A DNA stretch of 46,116 bases, from the NCBI GenBank assembly GCA_913048295.1, contig CAJWWK010000015.1, positions 1 through 46,116 of the forward strand, read 5' to 3'. Both the position numbers and the translations under genes were made by a program. Below the pieces are notes generated by a model. It saw only the letters and a program-made list of their open reading frames with translations. It had not been told where the DNA came from and did no database searches. The DNA comes from an uncultured Dehalococcoidia bacterium (GTDB lineage: Bacteria > Chloroflexota > Dehalococcoidia > Lucifugimonadales > Lucifugimonadaceae). Of the stretch, positions 15,415-30,370 are shown piece by piece. Positions within the stretch are counted from its first letter, which is position 1; each line of letters begins with the position of its first letter.

Positions 15415-15666
15415 CTATTCCGCGGTTTCCAACGGCTCTTCCACTACTGCGGTTTCAGTCTCGGGAACGAACAGCGTTGCGCTCACGGTCGACTCGGTTT
15501 CTCTCGCGTCCCTGCTGTCTATGGCCGACGAGACTAGAAACAGGATCACCAGCGCCAGGATGATTGCCAGGAGCATCCAGTATCCGATCGCCTCGTATCG
15601 CTTCCAGAAGCCGGAACGGCCTCCCGCCGCCTCGTTCTGCCGGGGCCTGACCGGTCCGATACGCAT
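15415..15666 (-). CDS. small single-span membrane protein, unknown function
   Basis: 83 residues. A basic N-terminus (residues 1-24) is followed by one strong transmembrane helix (about 30-48, MLLAIILALVILFLVSS) and an acidic, Thr/Glu-rich C-terminal tail, so it is probably membrane-anchored with the tail outside. No family is recognised. Its first ~210 bases overlap, in another frame, the 3' end of the preceding selenoprotein-like gene; the hydrophobic helix makes this frame the more credible one there, and the overlap suggests that the upstream gene has lost its proper stop. Confidence 0.55.
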   Translation of the reverse strand: MRIGPVRPRQNEAAGGRSGFWKRYEAIGYWMLLAIILALVILFLVSSAIDSRDARETESTVSATLFVPETETAVVEEPLETAE

Positions 15667-16666
15667 CGGAATATTCGACCACCGTCGCGACCGCGACCGC
15701 CATCTCGAGAAGGTCCAGGCCCGCCATCAGCACGGCACGTTGCTTTTCGACATCGAAAAGCGCCGAAAGGGGGTGCCCCATTGGGTGCGGTGTCAACAGT
15801 ACCCGCGCGTGGCTCATCGGCACTGTTCGGTCTTTGAACACAGTTGACATGATTATGACGCTCGGAATCCCCGCGTCCTCAAACGCCCTGGCTACGTGCC
15901 CGACCGACACGTGGCACACAGGTCAGACCGGAACCAGCACCGCGCCCTGGGCACCAGCCGACTTCGCTCGCTCTGCCTAGGCGGGTGCAATCTGTTTGCG
16001 CAGACGTAGCTGCGAGGTCAGTCCAACAAATGAAAAAGCAGGGTCCACGAATTTACCGATCACACCGTCTTTTTCGAGTTCCAACATGCGGTCGATCGGG
16101 AAGGAAGTGTTGCGATCGGCTTTGGCGGCCCGGATGTCGTAACAGGTGTGCCGGACCCGCGTCCTGTCGCGCGTTGTCGACACCGGAACTTCAGAGAGTG
16201 TCGGATCGGCCTTGCCCATCTCGACCGACATCTTCACGACCTGGCCCTGTGTCAGATTTTCCATGCCGAAGGGGTCGGGATCGTCACCTTCGGCAAAATG
16301 ACCTGTAGTCGTAAGCAGTGCGACTCGGCTTTCCGATAGCGGTTGCTACAGTGTTGCGAACGGCCCGGTGTCATAAACGAAGTGGCCCGCTCCTGCGTAC
16401 GCTTTCGACTGGGCGAGCACGATGACCTCGACAATTGGCTCGGTATCGCCGTCGTCGATCAGCTGCCCGGTCAGCCGCAGGAGTTCTTGAAGATATTCAT
16501 CGGCAATCTCCTCGGGCCCGGCTTTAAACCACTTGTGGAAGAGGTCGGTGCGAGAACCGCAAAAAAACGAATTGCGAAACTCATCGAACGATTCAGTCGC
16601 ATCCTGCCCGCCGGGATCCTGGTCTGCGGGAGTAATCGGAGCCGAGGGTTTATCTGTGGTCACCAA
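15455..16666 (-). pseudogene. GrdB/PrdB-like selenoprotein (glycine/sarcosine/betaine reductase B family), with two extra in-frame TAGs
   Basis: From ATG 16664-16666 a single frame encodes the family pattern: FDEFRNSFFCGSRTDLFHKW near residue 28, YDTGPF, SRVALLTTTGHF, DPDPFGMENLT, and after the redox motif GHVARAFEDAGIPSV. The in-frame TGA at 15923-15925 (codon 248, VLVPV-TGA-PVCH) makes a U-x-x-C motif, where selenocysteine is expected in GrdB/PrdB proteins, so this TGA is probably Sec. Two TAGs (16346-16348, codon 107; 15977-15979, codon 230) have no such explanation and suggest decay. The last ~70 codons overlap a membrane-protein gene in another frame and look non-native. Such proteins are thiol/selenol reductases; the substrate is unknown. 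It lies downstream of the CoA-transferase genes. Confidence 0.7.
15896..15917 (-). promoter_or_regulatory. candidate SECIS hairpin after the UPVC TGA
   Basis: Starting six bases after the TGA, GTGCC (15913-15917) pairs with GGCAC (15896-15900); inside, CG pairs with CG around a TGTCGGT loop after one bulged A. The distance from TGA to the apical loop is within the range usual for bacterial SECIS elements. Structure judged by eye only. Confidence 0.35.
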
Positions 16667-24523: not shown

Positions 24524-25000
24524 CTAGTTGGCCGTCGACCCGGCGGGTTTGTGATCGCGCGAAACCATTTCGAGCCAGTTGCCGTCGGGGTCCTGAAAGT
24601 AGATCGCGTATCTGGCCCACGGGTATTCGAGATCACGTTCGTACTTCGGACCAAACACGTTTATCCCCTCAGCTTCGAGTCGTTCTCGCCAGGCTGGCAC
24701 GTCGTCCACAACCATTGCGGCGTGGGCCGAGCCGGGCCGGTTGCGATCGGACTGGTCAGAACGTGCTTCGCCCCGTGGTAAGACATACTCGATCAACTCG
24801 ATCGAGTGGCCGTCGCCGACACCCACGTAGGCCATGTGCATTTCCACTTCTTCGTACCCGACAACCTCGGCCAGCCAGGGCGCATCGGCAACCACGGGTT
24901 CTCTTTCGATCACCATACCCAGCAGACCCGTGTAGAACTCGAGTGCCCGCTCCAGGTCGTTGACGACGAACCCGGTGTGGTAAATGGTTTGAACTTTCAT
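24524..25000 (-). CDS. VOC (glyoxalase/bleomycin-resistance) superfamily protein
   Basis: 158 residues with two beta-alpha-beta-beta-beta modules. Metal-site residues typical of the fold appear: His8 in YHTGFVVNDLERALEFYTGLLG, the Glu of SIELIEYV, His in SAHAAMVVDDV and the Glu of DPDGNWLEMV. These would chelate a divalent metal as in glyoxalase I, epimerases or extradiol dioxygenases. The reaction cannot be assigned. It precedes the TPR gene by two bases. Confidence 0.85.
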   Translation of the reverse strand: MKVQTIYHTGFVVNDLERALEFYTGLLGMVIEREPVVADAPWLAEVVGYEEVEMHMAYVGVGDGHSIELIEYVLPRGEARSDQSDRNRPGSAHAAMVVDDVPAWRERLEAEGINVFGPKYERDLEYPWARYAIYFQDPDGNWLEMVSRDHKPAGSTAN

Positions 25001-25079: not shown

Positions 25080-26579
25080 TTACTTTTGCGGGACTGGAAT
25101 CGGGGCAGGTTCTTCGGCCGACTCGACCTTACGTGGCCGCGCGGCTATCGACAGCGCCACCGCCATCAGCGCGAACACGACCACGAGTAAGAACCCAATG
25201 CGCCAGCCCGCCATAAACGCCTCTGTCGCCCCACTGCTCCCGGAAACGTCACTCAGCGGAATGTCGAACCCGCGGCTGACCATCACTCCAACGACGATAG
25301 CCGTCGTTATTGCCTGACCGACCACTACACCGACGTTGCGCACCAGGTTGGTCAGCGCTCCGACCACGCCCATTGCCGACACGGGAACCGAACCCATCAC
25401 AACGCTGTTGTTCGTTACGTTCCACGTGCCCATCCCGAATCCGCTGAAGAACAGGATTGTCATCACGATCCATACCGGCGTGCCGGCAGTTAAAAACATT
25501 AGTCCACCGGCAACCGCTGCTGTAGTTGTAAAACCTGCGATGAGGAATGGCAACGTGCCAAATTTATCTCCCAGTCGACCCGATAATTGTGCCGCGATGG
25601 CCACGCCGACCGGGGACAGGAACAAAATGCCGCCTGCAAGCGCTTCGTCAAATCCCCTGAGGCTGATCAGGTACACAGGCATCAGCAAGAACACCCCCGA
25701 AGAACCCAGGAATCCGAACAGGCGAGCGGTCGAGTTCATACTCAGAACTCGATTCCGAAACATCCTGAGGTCCAGCATCGGGGAGTCGCTGTTCAACTCC
25801 CACCAGACGAAGTAAGCAAACAGAATGACTACAGAAATTGCTCCACCGATCATGAGCGGCGAAACCACCGCGATGCCGAATGGGTTGTTTATCAGGATGA
25901 CGGCAAGAATGACGACTAATGCCGATACGACGGCGCCGACATAGTCGAATGGCGGTTTCTTCGCAGCCATGCCCCTGCTCACCTTGCTCTCGTCGAGCAC
26001 CGTTAGCGCGAGGACGATTGCGAGTCCGATCGGGATCAGCAGCACCCAGAAAATCGCCTGCCACGAGAAGAACTGGATCAACAGCCCGGCTAAAATCGGT
26101 CCCGTTGCCATCCCGATCGCCACCATCGTGGTTTGTGTGCCGAGAACTTTTCCTCGTTCCCTCCCCGGGAACACAGAGAGGATCATGCCGGTAGTGACCG
26201 ACTGAAGCATGGAGTTGCCGACGGCCGCGACCACACGCGCCCCGATAAGAAAGCCGAACCCGGGTGCGGTGGCCGTGAGCACTGTTCCTGCTGCGAAGAT
26301 AACGAGTCCGGCGAGGTGGACCTTCTTGCGACCGATAATGTCGCCAAGTCTTCCCATCGGCATCATCAGCGCGGTGATGGTCAGTCCCTGCACTATGACT
26401 ACCCACGCGACGGAACGCAGGGTCACGCCGAAATGGTCGGCGATCTCCGATAGCGCAACGGCGATCATCGTCATGCTCGCCACCATCACGACAAGTGCAA
26501 TGCCGATGGCAGTGAACGGAATCCACGGGTTCGATCCGTCCGACTGGTTGTCGACGGTCGGTGAGGAAGGCTGGGTCAA
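25080..26579 (-). CDS. MFS transporter, DHA2-like 14-helix family
   Basis: About 499 residues with roughly 14 hydrophobic helices. Motif A between helices 2 and 3 is GRLGDIIGRKK; motif C-like GMATGPILAGLL follows in helix 5. This architecture is that of DHA2 (EmrB/QacA) proton-driven drug or metabolite exporters. Start: TTG 26577-26579 leaves a short polar N-terminus before helix 1; a TTG at 26634-26636 would add nineteen residues. Neither has a strong ribosome site. The substrate is unknown and there is no adjacent regulator or membrane-fusion gene. Confidence 0.88.
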   Translation of the reverse strand: MTQPSSPTVDNQSDGSNPWIPFTAIGIALVVMVASMTMIAVALSEIADHFGVTLRSVAWVVIVQGLTITALMMPMGRLGDIIGRKKVHLAGLVIFAAGTVLTATAPGFGFLIGARVVAAVGNSMLQSVTTGMILSVFPGRERGKVLGTQTTMVAIGMATGPILAGLLIQFFSWQAIFWVLLIPIGLAIVLALTVLDESKVSRGMAAKKPPFDYVGAVVSALVVILAVILINNPFGIAVVSPLMIGGAISVVILFAYFVWWELNSDSPMLDLRMFRNRVLSMNSTARLFGFLGSSGVFLLMPVYLISLRGFDEALAGGILFLSPVGVAIAAQLSGRLGDKFGTLPFLIAGFTTTAAVAGGLMFLTAGTPVWIVMTILFFSGFGMGTWNVTNNSVVMGSVPVSAMGVVGALTNLVRNVGVVVGQAITTAIVVGVMVSRGFDIPLSDVSGSSGATEAFMAGWRIGFLLVVVFALMAVALSIAARPRKVESAEEPAPIPVPQK

Positions 26580-26701
26580 GAGCTTGATGTGATTGTCGTA
26601 ACTAATGCAGATTAATAAATGGCGCGTGTGTACCAATATTCGGGCGACATACTACTCCTGCATCGGGCCAGATTCATCTTGGAACCGAGTTACGCGCCCC
26701 G

Positions 26702-26818: not shown

Positions 26819-27727
26819 CTATATCTTGTAAAACCTTTCCGCGTTGTCGTGGAAGAGCATTGCCCGATCTGCATCTGAAAAGTCGGATGTGATATCGCTG
26901 TACGCGTTCCACAACGTTGTGTAGTCGCTGAACAGGCTATCGACCGGGAAGTTCGAGGCAAACATACAGCGGTCGACGCCGAGAATGTCGATCGCATCAA
27001 GCACAAACGGCGCGATCGATTCGGTCGTCCACTGCTGGTCCAGCATCCCCAGCGCCGAAATCTTGGCCGATATGTTAGGGCCCGTTCCAAGCGCTTCAAG
27101 GCCCTTTCGCCACTCCCGCAACTCACCGGGGGACCTGCCGATCGGCATGGCGGTATGGCCAAGAATTATCTGCACTTCGGGAATATCGTTCGCTAGTCTG
27201 GCCGCATCCTCTAACTGCCACGGCCAGATCTGCACCTCGAACGACCCTCCGAAAACCTCCAGCAGCTTAAATCCCGAACGCCACTGCGGGTCTCTCATCA
27301 GGTCGCCCGCCTCCGCGAACCGGAAGTTGGGGCGGTCGTCCGACCAGTTCAGCATGTGGCGAATGCCGCGCCAGTTCTGGTGCTCGGCGTGTCGTTCGAG
27401 TACGCCCTCTACGTTGGGGTCGGAGAGGTTTGCATACGCGATGATGGCGTTCGGCATGCCCCTCGATCCGGGGTCGTCCGCAACACTCTGCAACCACGCG
27501 GTCTCGCCAACAGGGTCGACGTTGTGGTCCCACTCGGCCTGCACGTGAACAGATTTCCTGAGCGGGATGTCTTTGGCGCCCTCGTGCAGATCGCCGATCA
27601 GCCACGACTTGCGGATGGCCGAGTAGTCGCCAACGAAATGGTCAATCGGCTCCATCAACCACGGATACGGGTTGTTTTCAAGGTCCCATAGATGATGGTG
27701 GGTGTCGATGAAGGGTGGGACGGTCAT
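26819..27727 (-). CDS. amidohydrolase family protein (COG3618-type TIM-barrel lactonase/hydrolase)
   Basis: 302 residues. The metal-dependent hydrolase motif HHHLWDL lies at 10-16, the HVQAEWD strand near 61, GHTAMPIG near 190 and the late Asp in FASNFPVDSLF near 257. This set is typical of amidohydrolase-2/COG3618 proteins, which include L-fucono- and L-rhamnono-lactonases, so it may open a sugar lactone before the enolase-type dehydratase. That link is an inference from context; other members are decarboxylases or hydrolases. ATG 27725-27727 is the start. Confidence 0.88.
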   Translation of the reverse strand: MTVPPFIDTHHHLWDLENNPYPWLMEPIDHFVGDYSAIRKSWLIGDLHEGAKDIPLRKSVHVQAEWDHNVDPVGETAWLQSVADDPGSRGMPNAIIAYANLSDPNVEGVLERHAEHQNWRGIRHMLNWSDDRPNFRFAEAGDLMRDPQWRSGFKLLEVFGGSFEVQIWPWQLEDAARLANDIPEVQIILGHTAMPIGRSPGELREWRKGLEALGTGPNISAKISALGMLDQQWTTESIAPFVLDAIDILGVDRCMFASNFPVDSLFSDYTTLWNAYSDITSDFSDADRAMLFHDNAERFYKI

Positions 27728-27889: not shown

Positions 27890-28435
27890 TTACTCTCGTC
27901 GTGCGAGGAGCGATCCGATTATCTGCGGTGTAGCTTCGATGGCGCGTTCATGGATCTGCTCGGAGGTCAGGCTGCCTATTGGATGCTGGATCAAAGCGAA
28001 CGGGTAGTCGGGTATTCCGCCGAGGTTTGCCATTGCCCGTGCACCCGATTCAAACGGTTCCGTGCAGATGGCTATCGCCGGTACGCCCAGGGCTTCGAGC
28101 TTCAACGAGTCGTACACACTGGACGACGAGCAACTTCCTCAGTCGCCGTTTGCCAGTAATGCCACATCGACCTCGTTGGAGAAATCGCTGAGGAATTCCG
28201 GTTCGGCCGGTCTCGAGGCATCGCCCTTGTTGATCCTGTGAGAAGTCGAAACGTCGAAGCGCTCCGCCAGAACGTCGTATATGGCGTCGAGAAGCGCTTC
28301 CGAGTTGAGCTTGTCGTTAGAAAGCAGGCCGATCCGCTTGCCGGCGAGCGAATCCGGCCGTTCGGCCATGCCATCGGTTGCTATCGACAGAGTACCGGTC
28401 GGGTCGAGAACTCGAAGTGTGTTTTGATCTGCCAT
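27890..28435 (-). CDS. UGSC family selenoprotein (TGA read as selenocysteine)
   Basis: The frame from ATG 28433-28435 (AGGAG seven bases upstream) to TAA 27890-27892 is 181 residues with one internal TGA at 28139-28141 (codon 99). It falls in ALLANGD-TGA-GSCSSS, exactly the U-G-S-C motif that names this family, so the TGA is read as Sec99. Before it are LAGKRIGLLSNDKLNSEALL and VDVALLA; after it LEALGVPAIAICTEPFESGA and NLGGIPDYPFALIQHPIGSL. U-x-x-C suggests a redox or thiol-transfer centre; the reaction is unknown. The gene sits 22 bases after a conserved gene which itself follows rhaM by nine bases, so all three are one operon. No Sec machinery is in the window. Confidence 0.9.
28109..28127 (-). 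promoter_or_regulatory. candidate SECIS hairpin of the UGSC gene
   Basis: Eleven bases after the TGA, GTCGT (28123-28127) pairs perfectly with ACGAC (28109-28113) around a nine-base loop CCAGTGTGT. The position relative to the TGA is right for a bacterial SECIS element. Judged by eye only. Confidence 0.45.
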
Positions 28436-28457
28436 TTCGGACTCCTGCTATGAAATA

Positions 28458-29519
28458 TTACCTGACTGCGTTGATCAGCCGTGTAACGGCCTTTGTCTTT
28501 GCACCCAAACCCCACATCGGAATCACCGAGCTCCACGCTCCGCCCGCGCCGCCGACCACGATCGGCACCGCGGATTCTGGTGTTCGCAGGGTGCTGGCCA
28601 ACTCTTCGCCACCACTCCCGGGTTCAGCTCCGTTCTCCTGCCCCACCCCGCTCGGCATGCCCGCATTAGCCCACTCCGAAGCAGGTTTTCGGGTGTTTTC
28701 ATACAGGTACTGCCCGACCTGCGCTTTACTCCATCCGGCGCGGGCGAAGTGCTCGGCATGCTCGGGACATACGACCAGTACTACCTCGTGACTTCCGGGG
28801 CCGAGGGCATACAGCCGCTGTGCGAAAGCATCGAGTATTCCCTCGGGGGTGCTGGCCTCATGCTCGCCAAACTGAAGCCCGCTGAGTCCGGCGAACACCG
28901 TCACAGCGCTGTCGTTAATGTCGTGCCCGCGAGTCACATGCAGCGGTTCCCACGGCAGGCTCGCTTCGTTTTCGGCCACGCACCAGCTGTATTTTCCCGG
29001 ATGCCCGAGAGTGGCCTTGTCGAGACCGTCCCTGCTGCTGGTGCCCAGCACATTCATCACGATGAGCCTGATCGCCCGCCCGATCGTTGCATTGGCACGG
29101 TGCCCCGGCCCGAATGCCGAAACACCGGAGTTTATTTCCAGGGTCTGTGCGATCGGACCGTTCACGACCAGCAGAATCGCTGCCCCCATTGTCGAAACCG
29201 TTATCGCGTGGAGGTTGAACTCGTCTGCGGTGATCGCTTCGACGGCCGCAGCAACCACCGGCATGTACTCGGGTCGGCACCCGGCCATGACGGCGTTGAT
29301 AGCGGCCTTTTCAGCAGTGATTACCGCACCCTTGATAGGCTCGACTCCGAGGAGTGTATCGGGCGCAAGTTTCACCGCTTCAAGCGCAGCAGCCACTGCT
29401 TCGGGGGTCGGCGGCACGATGGGCAGGCCATCGGACCACCCGCGCTCGAAGTAAGCCTCGATCGCCTCGAACGCGTTGGCAACCTCGATGGAGTTAGAGC
29501 TAAGGCGGTTAGCTGTCAT
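28458..29519 (-). CDS. conserved protein of unknown function, operon partner of the UGSC selenoprotein
   Basis: 353 residues, no signal peptide or clear membrane helix. Conserved-looking blocks: GWSDGLPIVPPTPEAV (28-43), INAVMAGCRPEYMPVV with one Cys, ILLVVNGPIAQTLEINSG, FGPGHRANATIGRAIRLI, GHPGKYSWCVAENEASLPWE and a C-terminal VPIVVGGAGG. I recall similar proteins in environmental Chloroflexota and Proteobacteria but know no assigned reaction. AGGAAC lies eight bases before ATG 29517-29519. It starts nine bases after rhaM and ends 22 bases before the UGSC gene, which suggests that the two products work in one pathway. Confidence 0.85.
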   Translation of the reverse strand: MTANRLSSNSIEVANAFEAIEAYFERGWSDGLPIVPPTPEAVAAALEAVKLAPDTLLGVEPIKGAVITAEKAAINAVMAGCRPEYMPVVAAAVEAITADEFNLHAITVSTMGAAILLVVNGPIAQTLEINSGVSAFGPGHRANATIGRAIRLIVMNVLGTSSRDGLDKATLGHPGKYSWCVAENEASLPWEPLHVTRGHDINDSAVTVFAGLSGLQFGEHEASTPEGILDAFAQRLYALGPGSHEVVLVVCPEHAEHFARAGWSKAQVGQYLYENTRKPASEWANAGMPSGVGQENGAEPGSGGEELASTLRTPESAVPIVVGGAGGAWSSVIPMWGLGAKTKAVTRLINAVR

Positions 29520-29528
29520 ACGTGGTTC

Positions 29529-29852
29529 CTAATCCGTGTGGAAAACCTCTTCCCACTCGATCATGTTCTCGTCGGCATGTGCGCCTTCGGGTAGCTGGAA
29601 GTATGGCGACATCATGTCCTGCCACTTCTGGTTGATCTCCTCGCCAGCCATGCCAGCAAGCGACGCCTCGAACGATTCCTCGACCTCAACGTACCCGAAC
29701 AGCTGACCATCGGGCTTGAAAAATATCGAGTAGTTCCGCCAGCCGTGCTTGCGCAGTGCGTCGAGCAACTCGGGCCACACTTTCGTGTGCCATTCCTTGT
29801 ACTCGTCGGCCATCTCCGGCTTTATTCTTATTTCGAATCCGATTCGCTTCAT
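29529..29852 (-). CDS. rhaM: L-rhamnose mutarotase family protein
   Basis: 107 residues, the family size. It carries the RhaM pattern: RIGFEIRIKPEMADEYKEWH with the catalytic His22, VWPELLDALRKHGWRNYSI and a C-terminal WQDMMSPYFQ. RhaM interconverts alpha and beta anomers of L-rhamnose as a dimeric ferredoxin-like fold. GGGAGG lies eight bases before ATG 29850-29852. It is the first gene of the operon that ends with the UGSC selenoprotein. A substrate other than rhamnose is possible. Confidence 0.88.
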   Translation of the reverse strand: MKRIGFEIRIKPEMADEYKEWHTKVWPELLDALRKHGWRNYSIFFKPDGQLFGYVEVEESFEASLAGMAGEEINQKWQDMMSPYFQLPEGAHADENMIEWEEVFHTD

Positions 29853-29940
29853 TACTGGCCTCCCGGGGGCGGATTACGAGTTGCATGAGTGCGCCAGAGT
29901 GTAGGCTATGCGCCCACCAAAATCACTTTACCGGACTAGC

Positions 29941-30025: not shown

Positions 30026-30370
30026 ATGTCAAAGTCGATTGCACAGGTGCTCGACCTCAAAAACAATCCAGAACTCATCGCAAAATACGAGGAATACCAC
30101 CGCAACGTGTGGCCCGAAGTACTGGAGGCACTCAAAGGCATCGGTATCGAGCGGATGGAGATTTTCCGCAGCGGAAACCACCTGTTCATGTACTGTACCG
30201 TCCCCGACGATTTCGACCCCCGAAAAGACTTCCAGGGCTACACGGCCTCGAGGCGGGCCGAAGAGTGGAACGACCTGATGATGGAATACCAGCAAAAGGT
30301 CCCCGAAGCCGAAGAAAACGACTGGTGGTACCCGATGTCGCTGGCCTTCGACTCGGCCTGGGAGGCTTAG
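30026..30370 (+). CDS. second L-rhamnose mutarotase-like protein
   Basis: 114 residues. It shares the pattern of the divergent rhaM: LIAKYEEYHRNVWPEVLEAL with the His near 23, then a central strand (MEIFRSGNHLFMYCTV) and RAEEWNDLMMEY. ATG 30026 has GGAG nine bases upstream. It lacks the exact MKR..FE start and differs in the C-terminal part (WWYPMSLAF), so it may act on another sugar. The pair of diverged paralogues in opposite orientation flanks the shared spacer, which carries a repeat. Confidence 0.82.
   Translation: MSKSIAQVLDLKNNPELIAKYEEYHRNVWPEVLEALKGIGIERMEIFRSGNHLFMYCTVPDDFDPRKDFQGYTASRRAEEWNDLMMEYQQKVPEAEENDWWYPMSLAFDSAWEA

Follow-up and report, generated by a model that had tools for sequence, protein, structure and literature searches.

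We analysed a window of 46,116 nucleotides (contig CAJWWK010000015.1 of assembly GCA_913048295.1, positions 1 to 46,116 of the forward strand) from an uncultured marine Dehalococcoidia bacterium of the SAR202 clade (family Lucifugimonadaceae). Three minus-strand genes in this window encode a rhaM-family protein, a 353-residue protein that we term P353, and a UGSC-family selenoprotein with selenocysteine (Sec) at the U of its U-G-S-C motif. The run and its elements are as follows, SECIS standing for selenocysteine insertion sequence:

29529-29852, minus strand: rhaM-family gene (PF05336), 107 residues, heading the run of three
28458-29519, minus strand: P353, partner protein of UGSC, 353 residues, with no Pfam or NCBIfam model
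27890-28435, minus strand: UGSC-family selenoprotein, 181 residues, with Sec at codon 99 in LANGD-U-GSC
28139-28141, minus strand: in-frame TGA of the UGSC gene, read as Sec
28109-28127, minus strand: SECIS-like hairpin, columns 15-33 from the TGA, with one mismatch in the window copy

The gaps are 9 bases between rhaM and P353 and 22 bases between P353 and UGSC, and each gene is preceded by a purine-rich ribosome site (GGGAGG at 29859-29864 for rhaM, AGGAA at 29526-29530 for P353, and AGGAG at 28442-28446 for UGSC). The spacing, strand and ribosome sites given in the first-pass annotation are thus all present in the sequence, as is the TGA exactly at the U of U-G-S-C, with the frame open on either side over 181 residues. 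An Rfam scan of the window gave no match.

The UGSC protein of the window is a full-length member of PF24696 (E=2.7e-52, 177.8 bits against a cut-off of 25) and also passes NF041046 (132.8 bits, cut-off 125), in agreement with the known family (Zhang and Gladyshev 2008) in both its full-length match and the Sec of its UGSC motif. A UGSC match was found in 18 of the 19 genomes of the genus, counting the source genome; no relatives were found among viral contigs, and a sequence search against the PDB gave no match. The TGA at codon 99 is kept in all 24 close relatives, which were taken from genome contigs, and scoring of 104 distinct UGSC domain sequences gave 89 with TGA, 11 with Cys, three with neither and one fragment. 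Because the TGA is kept in every close relative and Sec or Cys in nearly all scored domains, its presence is not due to chance. Moreover, both Sec/Cys99 and Cys102 are invariant across 31 diverse members. The first-pass annotation had regarded homologues with neither residue as evidence against its assignment; such homologues do exist, as three distant fused proteins out of 103, in which the reaction may have been lost or altered, and the remaining 100 keep Sec or Cys. A 2016 report, as cited in PMC5330540, describes UGSC proteins in which Sec is coded by another codon.

Two of the three fused proteins with neither Sec nor Cys, from Sporomusa and Vibrio (L091 8317-10041 and L180 8344-10029), carry MGTS in place of UGSC, and each lies near genes for aconitase X and DUF126. 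On the Paracoccus plasmid pFER4 (L177 8429-8956), the annotation apparently breaks a UGSC gene at its TGA into two hypothetical genes; selA and selB lie no more than 10 kb away.

No Pfam or NCBIfam model matches P353 of the window, and searches with its relatives (22, then 34 members) against Pfam, NCBIfam and the PDB revealed nothing convincing, only isolated weak matches (best 1-cysPrx_C, E 0.0042). The residues D30, A73, G80, G121, N143, R148 and L152 do not vary across 34 sequences; C81 and C180 are almost invariant. P353 and UGSC were scored in 400 Chloroflexota genomes, taking per genome the best UGSC candidates up to eight and the best P353 candidates up to five, which makes both counts lower bounds. 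UGSC was found in 42 genomes, P353 in 42 and both in 41; UGSC stands without P353 only in genome G251, and P353 without UGSC only in G073. The UGSC entries scored number 90, some of them fragments (two in G164, and G305:C174). Of these 90, 74 are accompanied by P353 on the same strand and no more than 1.5 kb away, downstream in 50 and upstream in 24. The remaining entries have P353 on the opposite strand (one), at 2.95 kb (one) or not on the contig (14); 13 of these 14 belong to genomes G122, G137, G312, G145 and G305, where only the best five P353 candidates were scored, and the other is G251. In addition, 29 of the 90 entries lie inside one open frame of at least 536 codons, which fits a UGSC-P353 fusion, and the source genome itself has a second, fused copy on contig C7 with the motif UGTC, its chain read through.

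The same arrangement is found at closer and at wider range. Among the 24 close relatives, 22 have P353 upstream of UGSC at a distance of 20-60 bases, the exceptions being L032, where P353 is 2.5 kb off at the contig end, and L053, which has no P353. On plasmids, of which 16 loci were examined out of 24 records with P353, the UGSC domain is beside or fused to P353 in 15, including haloarchaea, actinobacteria and proteobacteria, and all eight plasmid records with UGSC by tblastn are among those 24. The distance matrices of the two proteins over 84 pairs correlate with r=0.94, compared to 0.15 for the best of 1000 permutations, and with 0.75 for the divergent pairs alone. UGSC and P353 are therefore a near-obligate pair across bacteria and archaea, which answers how often relatives of P353 neighbour UGSC. 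Co-occurrence, adjacency in both gene orders, fusion and mirrored divergence support the earlier claim that the two proteins act as one functional unit, and in our best reading they would assemble into a two-part enzyme.

Some plasmid pairs have features of their own. In the haloarchaeal plasmids L093, L174 and L181, two P353 genes flank one Cys-type UGSC. The conjugative IncP plasmid of Acidovorax sp. T1 carries a partly unannotated, TGA-containing UGSC-P353 pair (L090 8416-10017), with IS91-like and IS1071 transposases within 6 kb.

The source genome, which is 89% complete, has the machinery for Sec insertion. Its selA (508 bits), selB (323 bits) and selD (362 bits) are all over their cut-offs, and the gene for tRNA-Sec lies at G000:C36:1-89, clipped by the contig end, with 50.8 bits against 47 in truncated mode and an anticodon loop CUUCAAC that holds UCA. 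The top tRNA-Sec match, on C11, proved to be tRNA-Ser(GCU). The absence of selB or selC, which had been named as an objection, is not the case, and the last gene of the run stands as a UGSC-family selenoprotein by family membership, conserved TGA and Sec machinery. Since selA is over the cut-off in 321 of the 400 Chloroflexota genomes, it is of little use as a Sec marker; by reading of the scores, 39 of the 42 genomes with UGSC have a strong selA, G217 and G329 a weak one and G344 none. The selD gene (G000:C10:15984-16913, L027) has an in-frame TGA of its own. The tRNA-Sec gene at its contig end (L004 1-89) is directly followed by an integrase-like gene (220-1167, named by eye), as if an element had integrated there.

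Downstream of the TGA, the family has a SECIS-like hairpin of eight pairs that covaries among relatives. Over 40 of the 53 distinct UGSC sites, the pairs are formed in 85% of cells, compared to 17-55% with the partner slid, and 23 cells are doubly changed, compared to 5.7 in shuffles. Compared to synonymous recodings, the fold 3' of the TGA has a higher stability (mean z -0.70 over 57 sites); a control stretch gives -0.19 (56 sites). The window copy has -7.8 kcal/mol, with z 0.10 against shuffles and z 0.52 against synonymous recodings. The SECIS signal is thus strong for the family, and the local hairpin of the window is weak.

Profile comparison using HHalign revealed a relation between UGSC and GrdB, the Sec-containing subunit of glycine reductase. 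A profile of 31 diverse UGSC members aligned to one of 14 GrdB-family proteins with 96.3% probability (E=1.8e-9) over 68 columns, placing UxxC on UxxC, followed by GIPT and then HPxG. Larger profiles (64 UGSC against 26 GrdB sequences) gave 94.8% and a score of 56.5, compared to at most 22.4 for 60 column shuffles and 17.7 for the reversed profile; with the motif columns masked, the comparison still reached 84.8% with a score of 43.2. Subsets behaved similarly (95.0% for full-length GrdB alone, 90.5% for the short PrdB-like proteins, 88.7% for the close SAR202 set alone), and 22 unrelated neighbour families reached at most 4.8% in the same comparison. Judged from these profiles, UGSC is a remote relative of the Sec domain of GrdB and PrdB, of glycine and D-proline reductase, respectively. 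Its UxxC motif with Sec occupies the position that the motif has in the homologous domain of GrdB (PF07355). Single-sequence Pfam scans do not reveal this kinship, which may be why it was overlooked earlier.

The AlphaFold2 model of UGSC (predicted local distance difference test, pLDDT, 77; predicted template modelling score 0.76) is built of five strand-helix units, and the motif follows strand three. The 50 matches listed from a structural similarity search against the PDB are for the most part Rossmann- or flavodoxin-like domains. A published guess assigns UGSC a thioredoxin-like fold, and UGSC might be a thioredoxin-like redox or detoxifying selenoprotein with P353 as its redox client or scaffold. 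The UxxC motif and the thioredoxin reductase neighbours described below would suit such a role, whereas the model alternates strands and helices in a Rossmann-like order, no thioredoxin occurs among the 50 PDB matches listed, and the UGSC profile matches GrdB; we consider this explanation distinctly unlikely.

A separate frame in the window (15600-16438, minus strand) belongs to the GrdB/PrdB family (PF07355, E=2.5e-8). It has a TGA at VPV-U-PVCH and two in-frame TAG codons, and is a decayed gene or the product of sequence errors.

Taken together, we think it on balance probable that P353 and UGSC form a selenoenzyme that carries out a reduction in the manner of D-proline reductase or of protein B of glycine reductase. 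In glycine reductase, the substrate glycine is bound by the Sec-containing protein B, ammonia is expelled and a carboxymethyl selenoether arises, with thioredoxin as the reductant (PMC13188914, PMC10298544). Given the homology to GrdB, we propose the same selenolate displacement for UGSC. The two proteins would be separate subunits, or one fused chain in other lineages. The Sec of UGSC, sitting after the third strand of the Rossmann-like domain, would attack a carbon adjacent to a carboxylate or carbonyl, displace the leaving group that this carbon bears and form a selenium-carbon adduct. Cys102 of the same UxxC would then release this adduct, leaving a selenenyl-sulfide that thioredoxin and thioredoxin reductase would reduce again. 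The role of GrdE or PrdA, binding and activating the organic-acid substrate, would fall to P353, which has no detectable kinship to GrdE. By analogy, we read the reaction class as reductive cleavage of small organic acids at a carbon-heteroatom bond, both the chemistry and the substrate type being inferred.

Compared to known systems, the proposed enzyme shares with glycine reductase a second subunit and thioredoxin as the reductant. There are also differences: UGSC has 181 residues compared to about 430-490 for GrdB, its partner is not GrdE-like, and GrdA was not found in the source genome. No GrdE partner domain (PF09338) was found in this 89% complete genome either, and one of the 31 UGSC members touches PF09338 with E 0.074, which we take as chance. 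The scarcity of GrdA suggests that the acetyl-phosphate branch of glycine reductase is not needed, and D-proline reductase is likewise not known to need GrdA. The latter enzyme has a GrdB-homologous subunit, PrdB (PMC13188914), and its reduction is not coupled to phosphorylation (PMC10298544); PrdB/PrdA thus resembles the proposed enzyme as a GrdB-homologous Sec subunit without substrate-level phosphorylation, but differs in being NADH-dependent and not thioredoxin-dependent, according to a 2023 review. The GrdB and GrdE relatives FarB and FarE share their operon with an antiporter and a radical-SAM gene. They have been proposed to break the C-F bond in fluoroacetate (PMC10838667), a precedent for a GrdB-type Sec that would expel a different leaving group, in that case fluoride, from an organic acid.

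Many UGSC hosts are aerobic, which is a further difference from glycine reductase. A broader proposal, which we put forward tentatively and rate at somewhat less than an even chance, is that UGSC/P353 represents a third class within the GrdB superfamily of reductases and has a substrate subunit of its own. With it, aerobic marine bacteria and haloarchaea would use thioredoxin for the reductive cleavage of stable carbon-heteroatom bonds in organic acids, beyond the Stickland fermentations from which this chemistry is known.

Several observations weigh against a reductive selenoenzyme of the GrdB type. P353 was tried as a GrdE relative and rejected: it scores 14.9 against GrdE in HHalign, and 25 column shuffles reach up to 22.1. 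The alignment of UGSC to GrdB is confined to those 68 columns, and hmmscan of 20 and 31 single UGSC members gave no match to PF07355 (GRDB). No GrdB-family structure was found in the PDB, which makes a fold comparison of UGSC with GrdB impossible. GrdA (PF04723) is missing from the source genome as far as assembled and is over the cut-off in six of the 42 UGSC genomes. Moreover, the pairing has gaps: 10 of 86 P353 places, a tally that left out three short second fragments, have no UGSC within 1.5 kb, and plasmid locus L176 has P353 without UGSC. Neither Sec nor Cys is kept in the three distant fused members, G344 shows no selA at 98% completeness, and no open reading frame (ORF) resembling thioredoxin reductase was found in the window.

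Such ORFs are, nevertheless, found next to the pair elsewhere. Among 63 wider loci, blastp revealed seven ORFs resembling thioredoxin reductase. Each lies no more than 2 kb from the pair, compared to none among 494 ORFs more than 3 kb away; this contrast is a plain count. Two further annotated cases, trxB-trxA at L086 and trxB at L087, bring the total to nine of the 63 loci within 2 kb; at both, the greedy ORF caller had taken opposite-strand shadow ORFs over the annotated trxB, and distant copies may be missed in the same way. In Arthrobacter, the thioredoxin gene itself adjoins P353. Pyr_redox_2 is found in seven of 108 neighbour ORFs, a biased tally in that these were hand-picked from 136 and some shadow ORFs were swapped for annotated genes, including trxB of L086 and L087. 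Together with the invariant Sec/Cys99 and Cys102, these neighbours suggest that the step is probably thiol or selenol dependent, as the first-pass annotation had supposed.

On plasmids, the annotated neighbours include carboxylate transporters of the tripartite tricarboxylate and tripartite ATP-independent periplasmic types, CoA-transferases, citrate-lyase-like and phosphoenolpyruvate-mutase-like enzymes, and LysR regulators. Many annotated neighbours act on organic acids, which would also suit a P353 that is itself a catalytic lyase or hydratase on organic acids, served by UGSC as a redox regulator, repair or electron-transfer domain. The predicted model of P353 (pLDDT 75) has a class I fumarase as its best Foldseek match (E 2.5e-4, probability 0.84), L176 has P353 but no UGSC, and in L091 and L180 P353 is joined to UGSC-like domains with neither Sec nor Cys. 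However, the template modelling score to fumarase is 0.24 with a root mean square deviation of 17.7 Å, and we rejected the fumarase assignment, a lead from Foldseek only. In addition, the retention of Sec or Cys in 100 of 103 UGSC domains, one fragment set aside, is as expected for a catalytic residue. We regard a catalytic P353 with an accessory UGSC as unlikely.

In the passages on UGSC examined in open-access papers, there is no relation to GrdB, no reaction and no partner except the uncharacterised domain of a UGSC/Unknown_1 fusion reported in 2008 (PMC2398784). The family and one fusion were therefore already known in 2008, and the P353 pairing and GrdB kinship do not appear in these passages; the near-obligate partner and this kinship are what the window protein adds to the published account. 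UGSC makes up 8.2% of marine selenoprotein genes (PMC9402790), and a 2026 review still places it among selenoproteins of largely uncharacterised function (PMC13188914). A literature search for SAR202 together with selenoprotein returned no paper. For a selenoprotein family without an assigned reaction, the likeness to GrdB points to one that can be tested, and the partner and mechanism class make UGSC a testable enzyme with two genes, a reductant (thioredoxin) and a substrate class.

Around the three-gene run, the window contains four further genes that recur in part among the 24 close loci, some of which end early at contig ends, affecting the counts for rhaM, the amidohydrolase and the VOC gene (vicinal oxygen chelate family):

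30026-30370, plus strand: second rhaM-family gene, divergent from the first and present with it in the same 13 of 24 loci
26819-27727, minus strand: amidohydrolase (PF04909, 1.4e-38), L-fucono-lactonase-like below the cut-off (NF052480, 86 of 400 bits), in 10 of 24 loci
25080-26636, minus strand: major facilitator superfamily transporter, in two of 24 loci, one of them partial
24524-25000, minus strand: VOC/glyoxalase-family gene, in 10 of 24 loci

The first gene of the run belongs to the rhaM family (PF05336, E=3.2e-30), but scores 66.7 bits against the NCBIfam equivalog for L-rhamnose mutarotase (TIGR02625), below the cut-off of 99.6. The family in the original assignment therefore stands, whereas the substrate of the rhaM product is not established. 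The rhaM gene is present in 13 of the 24 close loci (in L053 beside UGSC alone), at about 30 bases to 3 kb from P353; another SAR202 subgroup has a CMD/AhpD-like gene downstream.

The first-pass annotation had read rhaM, P353 and UGSC as one dedicated step on a sugar or sugar acid. Beyond the presence of rhaM and of the lactonase-like amidohydrolase in part of the close loci, this agrees with the better growth of the cultured SAR202 strain Ca. Lucifugimonas marina JH545 on L-rhamnose, L-fucose, and their lactones and acids (PMC10444878). By contrast, rhaM is absent from 11 of the 24 close loci, some of them ended by contig ends, and is not among the neighbour clusters common to at least three of the 63 wider loci; the pathway passages of PMC10444878 name no such enzyme, and its text has no word starting with "selen". 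A sugar or sugar-acid substrate is thus not borne out, nor is the "new pathway" demonstrated, and we consider a dedicated sugar step very unlikely. Only a part of SAR202 shows the rhaM link, so that a sugar-acid substrate could apply there at most; for a reductive P353-UGSC enzyme of the source clade, one may speculate that the substrate is a deoxy-sugar acid or a derivative, for example of the acids of L-rhamnose or L-fucose. Strain JH1073 of Ca. Lucifugimonas marina (L055), a cultured SAR202 species, has rhaM, P353 and UGSC together, and thus carries the pair.

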